A stretch of DNA of 49,583 nucleotides from Dehalococcoidia bacterium. Its GTDB lineage: Bacteria > Chloroflexota > Dehalococcoidia > Dehalococcoidales > BS750m-G39. The stretch covers positions 1 to 49,583 of the forward strand of contig JAUWIX010000007.1 of assembly GCA_030608005.1 (NCBI GenBank). The letters are read 5' to 3'. The translations under genes and the position numbers were made by a program. Positions 42,823 to 48,763 of the stretch are shown here, piece after piece; within the stretch, counting starts at the first letter, position 1, and each line of letters begins with the position of its first letter. The notes under the pieces are model-generated. The model worked only from the letters and a program-made list of their open reading frames with translations. It searched no databases and was not told where the DNA came from.

Positions 42823-43067
42823 AGAAAGAAAACATTAAGAATTTGCTATTGGCAATTGTTGTTTTGTTTGTATTAGTACTGGTAATTTGGAATACTATAG
42901 CCTTAAATGAAATAAGAACGCAGGTAAGGTGGTTAAGATCGGACACAGCGGGCTTGGAATCAGATATAGCTAGTCTAGGATGGGACTTGGGTGATATGCA
43001 AAAACAATTGAATGGCTTTGAAGGTGACCTCCAGAGTATTGAGATGCTTTTGCGTTTAATGCGTTGA
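42819..43067 (+). CDS. Membrane-anchored coiled-coil hypothetical protein B
   Basis: An 82-residue product coupled to the preceding one by a 4-bp ATGA overlap; AGGAGG lies just upstream. A single membrane helix (about 8-30) is followed by a coiled coil with heptad leucines (LESDIASLGWDLGDMQKQLNG; split: LESDIASLGWDL). No family. The two products probably interact at the membrane, in the manner of small two-component holin-, phage-shock- or defence-like pairs, but no such role is shown. Confidence 0.6.
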   Translation: MKKENIKNLLLAIVVLFVLVLVIWNTIALNEIRTQVRWLRSDTAGLESDIASLGWDLGDMQKQLNGFEGDLQSIEMLLRLMR

Positions 43068-43126
43068 GTAGGGCTAATTAGTAGGCTAAATGAAGGTTTC
43101 CTCTTTAACAGGCTGCAAATAAAGCT

Positions 43127-43202
43127 TGGAGGCGACGACCGGATTCGAACCGGTGAATAGGGGTTTTGCAGACCCCCGCCTTATCCTCTTGGCTACGTCG
43201 CC
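43127..43202 (-). tRNA. tRNA-Cys (GCA)
   Basis: 76 nt with encoded CCA. Acceptor GGCGACG/CGTCGCC, anticodon loop CTGCAAA with GGGGT/ACCCC stem, T arm ACCGG-TTCGAAT-CCGGT. Confidence 0.96.
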
Positions 43203-43220
43203 CCTCAATAACACCCTTTT

Positions 43221-43295
43221 TGGAGCGGAAGACGAGATTCGAACTCGCGACCCTCTCCTTGGCAAGGAGATGCTCTACCACTGAGCCACTTCCGC
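43221..43295 (-). tRNA. tRNA-Gly (GCC)
   Basis: 75 nt with encoded CCA. Acceptor GCGGAAG/CTTCCGC, anticodon loop TTGCCAA, T arm GCGAG-TTCGAAT-CTCGT. Confidence 0.96.
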
Positions 43296-43303
43296 TTTTA
43301 TTT

Positions 43304-43390
43304 TGGTGCCGAGAGGGAGATTTGAACTCCCACGAGCTTATCGCTCACTAGCCCCTCAAGCTAGCGTGTCTGCCATTCCACCATCTCGGC
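43304..43390 (-). tRNA. tRNA-Leu (GAG)
   Basis: 87 nt with encoded CCA and a long variable arm. Acceptor GCCGAGA/TCTCGGC, anticodon loop TTGAGGG closed by CTAGC/GCTAG, T loop TTCAAAT. Confidence 0.95.
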
Positions 43391-43396
43391 GTAGTT

Positions 43397-43472
43397 TGGC
43401 AGGAGTGGCAGGACTCGAACCCGCGACCTGCGGTTTTGGAGACCGCTGCTCTTCCAACTGAGCTACACTCCT
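43397..43472 (-). tRNA. tRNA-Trp (CCA)
   Basis: 76 nt with encoded CCA. Acceptor AGGAGTG/CACTCCT, anticodon loop CTCCAAA with GCGGT/ACCGC stem, discriminator G as usual for tryptophan tRNA. Confidence 0.96.
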
Positions 43473-43515
43473 AGCTTTGTAATCTATATTATCATAAATT
43501 TTGATAAAAATTAAG

Positions 43516-43592
43516 TGGTACCCCTGGGGCGACTCGAACGCCCGACACGCGGTTTAGGAAACCGCTGCTCTATCCACCTGAGCTACAGGGGC
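43516..43592 (-). tRNA. tRNA-Arg (CCT)
   Basis: 77 nt with encoded CCA. Acceptor GCCCCTG pairs with CAGGGGT (terminal G-U), anticodon loop TTCCTAA with GCGGT/ACCGC stem. Confidence 0.95.
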
Positions 43593-43763
43593 ATATTAAT
43601 CATTTGAAAATGCCCTGCGCCCCAATATATTACACTCTTCCAGATATGCTTTCAAGTGAAATATTGGGCAGTCTTGGGGGCTTGACAAAAATAAGCTACC
43701 TACTCAAAATGCAGTACCATCTTGTGATGTGAATTCAGTGGTTATATTTTTCTGGAGGGGAAA

Positions 43764-44876
43764 ATGAGAACTGCCCCCCGTCTGGGTCGGATTTTAGGGA
43801 TTCGCCTGCAATTACATCCTACCTGGGCTATTGCCATTCCCTTGATAATAGCAATCGTGGTGACTCAGTTCCCTGAGGCTTATCCCTTATGGCAAAGGAT
43901 AGTTCTTGGCATGGTTGCCAGCCTCCTCTTTTTGGTGGCGGTGAGTATTCGTGAACTTGTCCTCAGTTTTTTGGCTCTCAGTAGAGGTATCCCAGTGAAG
44001 AGGGTTACTCTATTTGTCTTTGGTGGAGTGCCTCAGATAACTAAAGAGGCTACTCTCCCTGTTCTTGAGCTGCTGTTGGCTGTGGCTGGACTTCTGTCCA
44101 ACCTAATAATAGCCGGAATATTTTACGCGGTTCATTCTGTACTGGTAAACACTGGCAGCGTTATTATTGATGGACTTATCCTATGGTTGGCTTTCATGTA
44201 TTTTATGCTGGCTTTGTTCCACTTTATCCCTGGTTTTCCTCTAGATGGAGGTAGGCTTTTGCGGACACTGCTATGGAAGGCAACCGGCGATTATGACCGG
44301 GCAACAGGTATTGCTAGCTGGACTGGGCGGGGTATTGGCTTACTCTTTATTGCTTGTGGCATTCTGTTACTGATTTTGGCACATCAATGGTTTAACGGGC
44401 TAGTGTTGGCATTTGTGGGGTGGGTTTTACACAGTGCAGCAGCCCAGAGTCGCCGTCAGACGGTATTGCGTAAAGCTCTTCAGGATATTATGGCTCGGGA
44501 TATAATGGCTAGGGAATGTCCTCTTACCAGCCAGCAGTTCAGCCTAGGTCAATTAGTCCGCGATTGCATTCTAGTTACCGGGCAGCGCTACTTCGTTGTA
44601 GTTGATGGTGGTAAATTGCAAGGGATGGTGACCGTGCGTAATGTAAAACGAGTACCTAAAGAGCGCTGGGACTCTACCCCTGTAGGCGAGATTATGACAC
44701 CTGCTAGTGAGCTTAAGACTGCCCATGCCCAACAACCAGCAGCAAGCCTGCTGGAGCAAATGGATGAGTTGGAAATTAACCAGATGCCAGTGTTAGAACA
44801 AGATACGGTAATTGGTGTTGTCACTCGGGATAGCCTAATTCGTTTGGACAAGATTCGAGCCGAGCTTAAAATATAA
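43764..44876 (+). CDS. Site-2-protease-fold protein with CBS pair, zinc motif lost
   Basis: A 370-residue M50-family membrane protein. The order is four to six helices (about 20-225) followed by two CBS domains (about 240-300 and 305-365; DIMARECPLT, GEIMTPASEL). The expected HExxH in the third helix reads RELVL (residues 63-67): both zinc-binding histidines are replaced while the glutamate remains. The second site FPLDGGRLLRTLLW, with Asp161, is intact. It cannot bind zinc in the usual way, so it is likely a regulatory pseudoprotease, or it uses another metal site. The CBS pair suggests control by adenine nucleotides. TTGACA at 43682-43687 may be its -35. Confidence 0.85.
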   Translation: MRTAPRLGRILGIRLQLHPTWAIAIPLIIAIVVTQFPEAYPLWQRIVLGMVASLLFLVAVSIRELVLSFLALSRGIPVKRVTLFVFGGVPQITKEATLPVLELLLAVAGLLSNLIIAGIFYAVHSVLVNTGSVIIDGLILWLAFMYFMLALFHFIPGFPLDGGRLLRTLLWKATGDYDRATGIASWTGRGIGLLFIACGILLLILAHQWFNGLVLAFVGWVLHSAAAQSRRQTVLRKALQDIMARDIMARECPLTSQQFSLGQLVRDCILVTGQRYFVVVDGGKLQGMVTVRNVKRVPKERWDSTPVGEIMTPASELKTAHAQQPAASLLEQMDELEINQMPVLEQDTVIGVVTRDSLIRLDKIRAELKI

Positions 44877-44887
44877 TCGCTCCAAGC

Positions 44888-46372
44888 TTAATTGCAGCAA
44901 TCATTCCGTGCGGTGATAACTTTTTGGCTGACCGGAGTAGTTGTCAACAACGCCTGTCCAGGAATTTCGTCAATGACTTTCCTTTGTCGGCTTTCTTTAG
45001 AGTAGACTCTCCATTCCGCTTTGAACCACCGGAAGGGGCTTTCTGCCTCTGAGTTTATTCGTAGCCTCAAGTCACGGGGGTCACCAGTTATCCATGACAC
45101 ATGTCTAATGTTGGTGAGGGGCGTACCGGTGACTATTTCAACTTCATAATGGTCACGCTTAACCCCAGGGGGCAGTAACCCACACCGATAAATACTCCAG
45201 TCCACCTGCACATAATTTCTGGGGGCAGCTCTGGTTCGTAAGTAGAGTCGGCAATCTTCGGGGCTATCAGCACTGAGCCAACGCGATTCCTTAATGCTGG
45301 CAAGAAAGGAGAGAAATCCCACTTTACTGACCTGGTAACTACTTCGTTTGCCCTCAGCAGGGCACTGCCCAACTACATCCTCCCACTCTTGCCACTTGGC
45401 GTAAGATTCGTTCCAGTGCCGCAGGCTACCGCTATCGGTGAGAACTTCCCCAACAACATCCTCCCAGTAATCTGTTCCCGGTATCCAACCAGCTTTATGT
45501 TCTAAAGTGCCGCTTTTAGCCAAGACGGAGCATTCTATACCTCCGCCAAAAAGATAGTGCAGGATTTGCTCCGCCATGAACCCGGCTACCTCATCTAAGA
45601 CGGAAAAATCGCTATGACTATACTCTCCATAGTAGATGACATCAGCCCCATCAGAGTATTGAGCTGAGAGTGGTATAATGTTGTCATCCATGTTTCTGGG
45701 CATAGCGTCAACTCCGCCAACATTAAATTGCTCACTAAGCGGTGCCGCTTCACCCGATATGAAAGCTAGCCAGTGTCTAACCGCACCTACCCATCTCCCA
45801 TCTTGAGAGCTATCGTAGTAGGCTAAGGAGTTACAAACCCCTCGGTCCGAGAGCAACCATCGGGCTCGACAATAATCCAATGCCGAAGCGCCACCAGCAG
45901 CATAATACCTGTGCATACTCTTAATAGGGCTATTGATAGTTACCACCAGTGCCACCTTGTCAGCCAAATCGCCTACATTCTGTGCTACGGCATAAAGGGC
46001 TGCCTTGCCTCCCATACTGTGCCCGATTAAGATTAGATTCTTTTTGTTATGAAAATGCTTGTCGATGCTGTCAGCGATGTTAATAGCCCAAGTTTTAATA
46101 TCTACATCGTTGGGATAACATCTTTGCAATGTATCAACCCGAATCTTAGTTTTAGGATTAGCTTGTTGGTAGTCAAGGATATGTGCCGGTAGCTGCTCCA
46201 TGATGGAATCAGCCAAAAGCTGCATAGCACAGACATTGCCACCAGCACCATGAAGAAAAACGAAATTCAGCTCCTTGACCTGAACCGGGTTCTCCGGCGC
46301 TGATTGTGCTGAGCTACAGAAGCCGAGTTGGAGGCACAGTCCAACGGTTATTAGTAATGCTAACCGTTTCAT
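44888..46372 (-). CDS. Secreted alpha/beta hydrolase with an unknown C-terminal domain
   Basis: A 494-residue exported protein. A signal peptide (about 1-25, LALLITVGLCLQLGFCSSAQSA; split: LALLITVGLCLQLG) precedes an alpha/beta-hydrolase domain with FLHGAGGN (oxyanion region) and the nucleophile elbow LIGHSMGGKAAL. The catalytic histidine probably lies in EYSHSDFS. After about residue 290 an unrecognised domain follows with two WEDVVG repeats and four or more cysteines. Likely a lipase or esterase-like enzyme acting outside the membrane. The frame opens at TTG 46408, but ATG 46372 gives the clean signal peptide. Confidence 0.75.
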   Translation of the reverse strand: MKRLALLITVGLCLQLGFCSSAQSAPENPVQVKELNFVFLHGAGGNVCAMQLLADSIMEQLPAHILDYQQANPKTKIRVDTLQRCYPNDVDIKTWAINIADSIDKHFHNKKNLILIGHSMGGKAALYAVAQNVGDLADKVALVVTINSPIKSMHRYYAAGGASALDYCRARWLLSDRGVCNSLAYYDSSQDGRWVGAVRHWLAFISGEAAPLSEQFNVGGVDAMPRNMDDNIIPLSAQYSDGADVIYYGEYSHSDFSVLDEVAGFMAEQILHYLFGGGIECSVLAKSGTLEHKAGWIPGTDYWEDVVGEVLTDSGSLRHWNESYAKWQEWEDVVGQCPAEGKRSSYQVSKVGFLSFLASIKESRWLSADSPEDCRLYLRTRAAPRNYVQVDWSIYRCGLLPPGVKRDHYEVEIVTGTPLTNIRHVSWITGDPRDLRLRINSEAESPFRWFKAEWRVYSKESRQRKVIDEIPGQALLTTTPVSQKVITARNDCCN

Positions 46373-46738
46373 GCTGTTTTTCCCTTGCGTGGCGAATGAT
46401 AGCACCAATTGAAATGCGGTTACAAGATTATGAGATAACAGCTAATGTTATGGTAGGGTCAAACAGCGGAGAATGGTAAAGCTGACGAGGAGTTCTAGGT
46501 GCTGTCCTCTTTGGTGGAGCTGGGTTACAATAGGCAGAACTTTTAAGCTGGCCTTCAGCCTGACTATTCAGCCCAATAGCTATCATTGAAGATAATTATA
46601 GCAACAAGGCGTGTACTCTGCAACTCTCAAGCGGGATAAAATGATAAGACTTACTGTGTCATTGGCCGGTTCCCTCTGCCCATGCTTGCCACTTAATACG
46701 GGGCTAGCCCTTAACGACACCCCAATTTCCTAAAGCGG

Positions 46739-46811
46739 GCCACCTGAGGGCTGGCAGGCAATCTAATCGGCGGGGCAACTTCAAGCTCCCCAGTGGATTG
46801 CGCAGAGTGGC
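46739..46811 (+). ncRNA. Candidate structured RNA leader of iorAB
   Basis: Within the 492-bp gap before iorA three nested helices can be drawn: GCCAC (46739-46743) with GTGGC (46807-46811), GCAATC (46758-46763) with GATTGC (46796-46801), and GGGG (46772-46775) with CCCC (46788-46791). It ends 53 bp before the TTG start. I match it to no known riboswitch. The rest of the gap (46373-46738) shows nothing recognisable. Confidence 0.35.
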
Positions 46812-46864
46812 ATAGTTTGGTAAACTTGTAATGGAACTTTAACATACAAGGAAGGGGGCTAGCA

Positions 46865-48763
46865 TTGAAAAAATTAACTATCAGTTCTGATGCACCGGGA
46901 GAAAGGCTATTTATGCTTGGCAATGAGGCAATAGCCAGGGGGGCTATAGAGGCCGGGGTTCAATTGGCGGCTGCTTACCCTGGCACCCCGTCAAGTGAGA
47001 TATTGGAAACCATCGCCAGTGTAGCCAAGGAACTAGACATCTATGCTGAGTGGTCGACCAATGAGAAGGTAGCCTTTGAAGTAGCTCTAGCCGCCTCCCT
47101 CTGCGGGTTAAGAGCGATGGCATCAATGAAACATGTTGGTGTAAACGTAGCCCATGACCCATTAATGTCAGCTAGCTATATAGGCGCCAGAGGCGGCTTG
47201 GTGCTACTCACCGCCGATGACCCCTGGGCGTGGAGTTCACAGATTGAGCAGGACAGCCGATATATTGCCGAGCAGGGTTACCTACCCATCCTTGAGCCCT
47301 CTTCTGTCGAGGAAGCCAAGAACATGATGGCTGACGCCTTTGCCCTCTCTGAGGAATTTGGGCACCCGTTCATCGTCAGGTCGGTAACCAGAATAGGTCA
47401 TGCCCGGAGCGATGTAACACTGGGAGAGATATCAAAGGAAAGGAGAAAGGGCTTTTTTAAGAAAGACCGCTCCCGGTTGGTGTTAACCCCAGCTGAAGCC
47501 AGAAAGGACCGGCCACTGATGATTAAACGATTTGAAGAGATAGGTAAACGGGTGAATACACTCCCTTATAACCAGTTAAAGCTAGCTGATGGAGCCAAGC
47601 TGAGTGTAATCGCCTCTGGTCTATCATACAGTTATGCCCAAGAGGCAATAGAGTGGCTTGGTCTTGAGGACAAGATTTCAGTACTCAAGATTGGAACGCC
47701 GCACCCCCTCCCCAAGGAACTGGTAGTAAAACTGCTAAGCTCGGTGCCAGAGGCACTGGTAGTAGAAGAGCTAGAGCCGTTTGTTGAACTTCATGTTAAA
47801 GCCATTGCTCAGGAAGCCAATATCTCGACAAAAATCCACGGCAAGGACTTACTGCCGGTAATGGGCGAGCTATCCACCAGCAAGGTAACCGAGGCTATTG
47901 CCCAGTTGACCAACTCCAAACTCCCGGTCAATTTCGGGGAGATAGAGAAGCTTAGAGAAGAGACAGCGCCGCTTCTGCCGCTGAGACCACCAACCCTGTG
48001 TCCCGGCTGTCCGCACCGAGCCTCCCTCTATGCCATTAAGACAGCAGCCAAAAGGGTGGCTAAAGATTATGGTAAAGATGTAGTGCCTATCTACCCGGGT
48101 GATATTGGCTGTTATTCCCTGGGCTACATACCACCACTAGAATCCAATGATATTACTATCTGTATGGGAGCTGGCTTTGGTCTGGCTAACGGCTTTGCCC
48201 ATGCCACAGATGTGCCGATAATAGCCCACCTGGGTGACTCAACCTTCTTTCATGCCGGGATACCACCACTAATAAATGCCGTTTATAATAAAGCAAATAT
48301 AACTATGGTAGTGCTTGACAACTCAGCTACCGCCATGACCGGTTTCCAGCCACACCCGGGCACTGGCTATACTGCTACTGGCGAAGAAACGGTTCAGCTA
48401 AAACCTGAGGACATAGCCAGAGCTTGTGGAGTAAAATTCGTCGAGGTTATAGACCCCTTTGACCTGAAAATGGCAACCAATACCATAGAAAAGGCAATAA
48501 GATTTAACGGACCATCACTGATAGTTTCTAGAAGGCTCTGCGCCATAATAGAGCTGAGGGAAAAGAGGGAGAGAAGAGAGAAGGTCATTCCTTATCACAT
48601 AGACCAGGATAAGTGCAGTGAAAAATGTGAGGCATGCATCAAACTTCTGGGCTGCCCGGCGATAATAAAAGAGGACGGTAAGACTGTAATTGATAGCTCC
48701 TTGTGCACTGGTTGCGGGCTCTGTGCCCAGATTTGCCCATACAAAGCTATAGTACAGGAGTAA
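46865..48763 (+). CDS. iorA: Indolepyruvate:ferredoxin oxidoreductase, alpha subunit
   Basis: A 632-residue subunit that oxidatively decarboxylates aryl 2-oxoacids from aromatic amino acids to acyl-CoA, reducing ferredoxin. The pyrimidine domain is at about 15-190. CPGCPHRASLYAIK begins the TPP domain, with GDIGCYSLG and HLGDSTFFHAGIPPL (the TPP/Mg motif). The C-terminal ferredoxin domain has CSEKCEACIKLLGCP and CTGCGLCAQICP, two [4Fe-4S] clusters. TTG start behind AAGGGGG. iorB follows 5 bp later. Confidence 0.96.
   Translation: MKKLTISSDAPGERLFMLGNEAIARGAIEAGVQLAAAYPGTPSSEILETIASVAKELDIYAEWSTNEKVAFEVALAASLCGLRAMASMKHVGVNVAHDPLMSASYIGARGGLVLLTADDPWAWSSQIEQDSRYIAEQGYLPILEPSSVEEAKNMMADAFALSEEFGHPFIVRSVTRIGHARSDVTLGEISKERRKGFFKKDRSRLVLTPAEARKDRPLMIKRFEEIGKRVNTLPYNQLKLADGAKLSVIASGLSYSYAQEAIEWLGLEDKISVLKIGTPHPLPKELVVKLLSSVPEALVVEELEPFVELHVKAIAQEANISTKIHGKDLLPVMGELSTSKVTEAIAQLTNSKLPVNFGEIEKLREETAPLLPLRPPTLCPGCPHRASLYAIKTAAKRVAKDYGKDVVPIYPGDIGCYSLGYIPPLESNDITICMGAGFGLANGFAHATDVPIIAHLGDSTFFHAGIPPLINAVYNKANITMVVLDNSATAMTGFQPHPGTGYTATGEETVQLKPEDIARACGVKFVEVIDPFDLKMATNTIEKAIRFNGPSLIVSRRLCAIIELREKRERREKVIPYHIDQDKCSEKCEACIKLLGCPAIIKEDGKTVIDSSLCTGCGLCAQICPYKAIVQE

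Follow-up and report, generated by a model that had tools for sequence, protein, structure and literature searches.

A conserved pseudo-site-2-protease of Dehalococcoidia and its strict tail-to-tail linkage with a predicted secreted hydrolase

Results

The window, i.e., the whole stretch of DNA that was analyzed, comprises 49,583 nucleotides of a Dehalococcoidia genome (contig JAUWIX010000007.1). Its forward strand carries at 43764..44876 a gene for a protein of 370 aa, a pseudo-site-2-protease with a C-terminal CBS pair, as recognized from the open reading frame, Pfam, phmmer and an AlphaFold model. The next gene (44888..46408) lies on the reverse strand, and a gap of 11 bp separates the two convergent stop codons (44877..44887). 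On the basis of Pfam, alignment and gene context, it is predicted to encode a secreted alpha/beta-hydrolase (PGAP1/lipase-like) with the motif GHSMGG and the triad Ser131-Asp242-His265. A promoter and terminator scan of positions 43000-46900 gave nothing clearly above shuffled sequences.

The phmmer search matched the window protein to the site-2-protease (S2P) of Methanocaldococcus jannaschii (3b4r, E = 3.7e-15). In this alignment, R63 and L67 fall on the two zinc histidines of HELGH, E64 on the catalytic Glu, D161 on the Asp of PMDGG, which is the third zinc ligand, and H153 on the Asn of the NPDG motif. The HExxH motif of active M50/S2P peptidases, which holds both zinc histidines and the catalytic Glu, reads RELVL in the window protein (residues 63-67; 43950..43964, forward strand), as seen in the translation and the clade alignment. 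The NPDG region reads HFIPGFPLDGG (residues 153-163; 44220..44252, forward strand), where the Asn is replaced by His153 and the Pro, Asp161 and GG are kept. The AGP motif is AGL, and a further histidine, His18, belongs to an N-terminal RLHxTW-like motif of the clade alignment (43815..43817, forward strand). A misaligned or nearby HExxH was ruled out, as there is no second one anywhere in the 370 residues. The first-pass annotation of this DNA, made from the sequence alone, had reported the loss of both zinc histidines in RELVL and the retention of FPLDGG with Asp161; the codons at 43950-43964 and the 3b4r alignment bear out both readings. His153, AGL and the convergent hydrolase were absent from it.

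The M50 family scored above the Pfam cut-off. For the CBS pair (about residues 241-361; 44484..44846, forward strand), Pfam alone scored only the second domain; the pair is also present in the AlphaFold model (mean pLDDT 81.5), and residues 246-368 matched the S2P CBS tandem 5g5r. Foldseek with this model placed 3b4r_B first (probability 1.00, TM 0.80 on the target) and 5g5r third. Judged by its defining motifs, the window protein is a homologue of S2P group III, yet would not be an S2P peptidase. With the members of this group, SpoIVFB of Bacillus subtilis, MJ0392 (3b4r) and the Archaeoglobus fulgidus S2P (5g5r), the clade described below has in common the membrane core fold, the GG beta-hairpin, PxxPLDGG and the CBS tandem. 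It differs from them by RExx(hydrophobic) instead of HExxH, usually by a His for the NPDG Asn, by the convergent predicted secreted hydrolase, and by the loss of CBS in one subclade.

The named relatives were Dehalococcoidales/Dehalococcoidia MAGs. An initial survey of 61 genomes gave a clade of 18 sequences (support 100/100) that came from several families and all lacked HExxH. Wider searches covered 156 genomes of the order and 294 of the class, together with a phylum sample of 400 genomes. The final set of S2P homologues without HExxH, called dead S2Ps below, contains 34 loci, of which 33 gave readable alignment rows and 32 sequences entered the tree. The 34th locus, in G256 (L193 2380-3518), is broken into a pair of overlapping frames, through an assembly error or because the copy is decaying. 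The comparison set comprised 104 close homologues outside the clade, 80 of which were fetched solely in the hunt for exceptions. With the motif columns removed, the 32 dead sequences were monophyletic inside the active S2Ps (support 100/98); they belong to many families of the class Dehalococcoidia. Their nearest active sisters, L139 (G234) and L140 (G359), both carry HELAH.

All 34 clade members lack HExxH and all 104 close homologues have it; this loss is therefore not due to chance. Position 63 is Arg in the 33 readable rows and also in the split gene of G256, and position 67 is never His. Position 64, that of the catalytic Glu, is Ser, Gln, Ala or Met in 7/33 rows. Position 153 is His in 29/34 members and Asn in the other 5, whereas position 161 is acidic in 33/34 (Asp in 31/34, Gly or Glu in 3). 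The 104 homologues outside the clade all have H63, E64, H67, N153 and D161. His18 is invariant in the clade (33/33 readable) and variable among the active homologues (76/104). Besides Arg63, only structural PxxP and Gly positions were fixed in the dead clade. The conservation of the change in orthologues, which the first-pass annotation had proposed to look for, was thus found throughout the clade.

These columns bear on whether the protein could be catalytic through a different metal or acid-base site made of His18, Glu64, His153 and Asp161. The invariance of His18 and the frequencies of His153 and Asp161 would suit such a site. Nevertheless, Glu64 is replaced in more than a fifth of the rows, and His153 and Asp161 each give way to other residues in several members. 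The alternative metal site was rejected since the residues proposed for it are not conserved as a set, and we regard a new activity of this kind as improbable. Also, L089 and L090 (Chloroflexi CF_65 and CF_16) combine an intact HELAH with a His at the NPDG Asn position, so that this His is no mark of new activity or of zinc-motif loss.

Synonymous and non-synonymous rates gave dN/dS values (NG86, 13 pairs) mostly between 0.1 and 0.5, alike for the dead S2P and the hydrolase, with one very close pair higher; the coding sequence of the dead S2P is under purifying selection. Missing catalytic residues would also be expected if the gene were decaying or its sequence locally wrong. However, the same loss recurs at 34 orthologous loci, which refutes a local error, the frames are open except for the apparently split one of G256, and the origin is single, so that decay or error is to be regarded as most improbable. 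According to the phylogeny and the alignment, the gene is old and kept, and its zinc site was lost once. The classification as a pseudoprotease, already put forward in the first-pass annotation, is well supported by these sequence comparisons: the protease fold is present, the catalytic residues are lost, and the loss is conserved under selection across one clade of many families.

The CBS pair is absent in ten clade members (L171, L173-L176, L180, L183, L185, L187, and L189), which form one subclade (98/99) with open frames of about 244-334 aa and still have the convergent hydrolase. The annotation of both CBS domains as kept thus holds for the window protein and fails for this subclade. Because CBS was lost in these ten members, what stays constant in the module is the hydrolase together with the Arg63-bearing membrane core of the S2P.

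The hydrolase scored above the Pfam cut-off for PGAP1 and matched other alpha/beta-hydrolase families, and a PDB sequence search returned weak esterase matches only. Ser131, Asp242 and His265 are invariant in 32/32 hydrolases; the GxSxGG nucleophile elbow, the Asp and the His follow each other in order, and by sequence the catalytic residues are intact. The N-terminus is hydrophobic with AxA-like sites at its end and, by eye, resembles a cleavable signal peptide.

Clustering of neighboring open reading frames placed an S2P without HExxH, adjacent and convergent, at 34/34 hydrolase loci. The intergenic gap is mostly -4 to 55 bp, larger overlaps coming from stop-to-stop frames. Upstream neighbors of the dead S2P vary, whereas the tail-to-tail hydrolase is constant. 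In the order, the hydrolase occurs in 28/156 genomes, the same 28 that hold a dead S2P when the CBS-less forms are counted. Beyond those 28, the class sample had it only in G256, G272, G321 and G397, at S2P loci of the Arg type, and none was found in the rest of the phylum sample of 400. No hydrolase is present alongside the nearest active sisters in G234 and G359, hence the gain of the hydrolase and the loss of HExxH map to the same branch. Two genomes (G051 and G131) contain two dead S2Ps each, every copy with its own hydrolase and both modules complete. Between the distance matrices of dead S2P and hydrolase, the correlation is r = 0.87, and none of 2000 permutations was as high, though shared phylogeny alone gives high values. 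The linkage of dead S2P and hydrolase is strict; the mechanism behind it is an interpretation, which we discuss below.

The two genes might also be a cassette, inherited vertically with losses or transferred, which shares a common terminator and involves no functional interaction. Their sporadic distribution in the order, the variable upstream neighbors and the small convergent gap are in line with this. On the other hand, co-occurrence shows zero exceptions across at least nine of the order's families and a further three of the class (f51, f85, and f101), second copies are paired in two genomes, and the motif loss coincides with the gain of the partner. A mere cassette thus appears rather unlikely.

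A second S2P-CBS clade without HExxH was observed on Acidobacteriaceae contigs (L091-L112, alignment A3), with an invariant RExAR and HxxPAYPLD. The protein is single copy in each of ten genomes, with rsmD divergent and rsmI downstream. It resembles the dead clade by the change of the first His to Arg, the kept Asp, the His at the NPDG Asn and the CBS pair. It differs from it by its position in a separate clade on a very long stem and by having no linked hydrolase, and looks independent of the Dehalococcoidia clade. Because the first His is also Arg there, this family would fit the idea of Arg as a favored zinc substitute at that position.

An active CBS-S2P with HELAH, which the first-pass annotation had suggested looking for, is present in the window's own genome (G000:C1:22765-23865). 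The dead gene of G001, G002 and G003 is preceded, at a distance of 2-7 kb, by the active one. Gene order around the active copy is thiC-thi4-S2P-greA in L033, L036, L071 and L074, in some with a geranylgeranyl-reductase-like gene, which places the active copy among thiamine genes. In L072 (750-3558) and L073 (2415-5181), the active S2P is gone from the thi4-greA stretch and the dead S2P directly follows greA. When the empty site was sought in the G004 assembly, the greA neighborhood was not found there.

These observations concern the possibility that the dead S2P regulates the active CBS-S2P, as a decoy or allosterically, through shared substrates or through mixed dimers formed via CBS. The co-residence of both copies, close together in the three genomes above, is in favor of it, and the rhomboids include known regulatory pseudoproteases, the iRhoms (PMC3149277). 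However, four MAGs of family f1 (G005, G007, G009, and G010), one of them 93% complete, hold the dead S2P and have no detectable active CBS-S2P. In G007 and G009, thi4 directly adjoins greA, and the place occupied in relatives by the active gene holds no S2P. Also, a dead S2P is absent from most of the genomes that have an active one, and ten clade members are without CBS domains. A regulatory role on the active paralogue is not supported in view of the four f1 genomes, and we consider it unlikely. Overall, the first-pass interpretation was partly supported.

Discussion

Most likely, the dead S2P core works with the hydrolase as a membrane partner that does not itself cut, the two genes forming a tail-to-tail module; we give this reading a probability of about one half. 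It is suggested by the long retention of the dead form, always tail-to-tail with the same hydrolase. The loss of CBS in ten members and the genomes without an active CBS-S2P favor the hydrolase as partner over regulation of the paralogue. Among the alternatives, the latter would come first, followed by the non-interacting cassette and then by a new metal site.

We infer that proteolysis is absent because both histidines are gone and even Glu64 drifts. Since Arg63 and Asp161 form a fixed pair, Arg63 may take the place of the zinc charge opposite Asp161, and this putative pair would steady the site without zinc. The core would bind a membrane segment, perhaps the signal peptide of the hydrolase, or a lipid or lipoprotein substrate. 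It may thereby control export, retention or substrate access of the hydrolase, and in members that have it, the CBS pair would serve as an additional sensor of nucleotides. Against this partnership, the genes are convergent and not co-transcribed, and the MAGs in which the linkage was traced are incomplete. As established for mjS2P, the active site of an S2P faces the interior of the membrane close to the cytosol, and a direct contact with a hydrolase predicted to be exported is not obvious; a physical interaction is thus easiest to imagine by way of a membrane client or of the signal peptide. A bolder scenario, in which the zinc centre was given up when the secreted serine hydrolase was recruited, the dead core presenting a membrane-bound client and the hydrolase supplying the chemistry from outside, we hold to be doubtful. 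If true, the module would replace an intramembrane protease by two components.

S2P-type pseudoproteases are barely known outside plants. In the open-licence papers searched, we found no description of a bacterial CBS pseudo-S2P (the first-pass annotation had called the M50/CBS group hardly described in this respect), and the matched passages of a review of bacterial S2Ps make no mention of pseudo-S2Ps (PMC10202637). The chloroplast S2P pseudoprotease EGY3 of Arabidopsis, described as stabilizing chloroplast proteins, is likewise an S2P homologue without HExxH that is kept as a functional non-protease (PMC10978774). It is a plant protein, and is likened to the dead clade here by its description, not by its sequence. 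To our knowledge, neither a CBS pair nor a linked hydrolase is known for EGY3. The iRhoms, too, are intramembrane pseudoproteases and determine what becomes of the clients they bind (PMC3149277), but they are eukaryotic and of the rhomboid fold, which makes them an analogy only.

The present case concerns one bacterial clade with one origin, in which the event can be placed on the tree, and it offers a natural and testable gene pair. The case gives direct access to the role of an S2P core that is unable to cut, and it names an uncharacterized predicted secreted hydrolase as the likely client or effector of the dead S2P.
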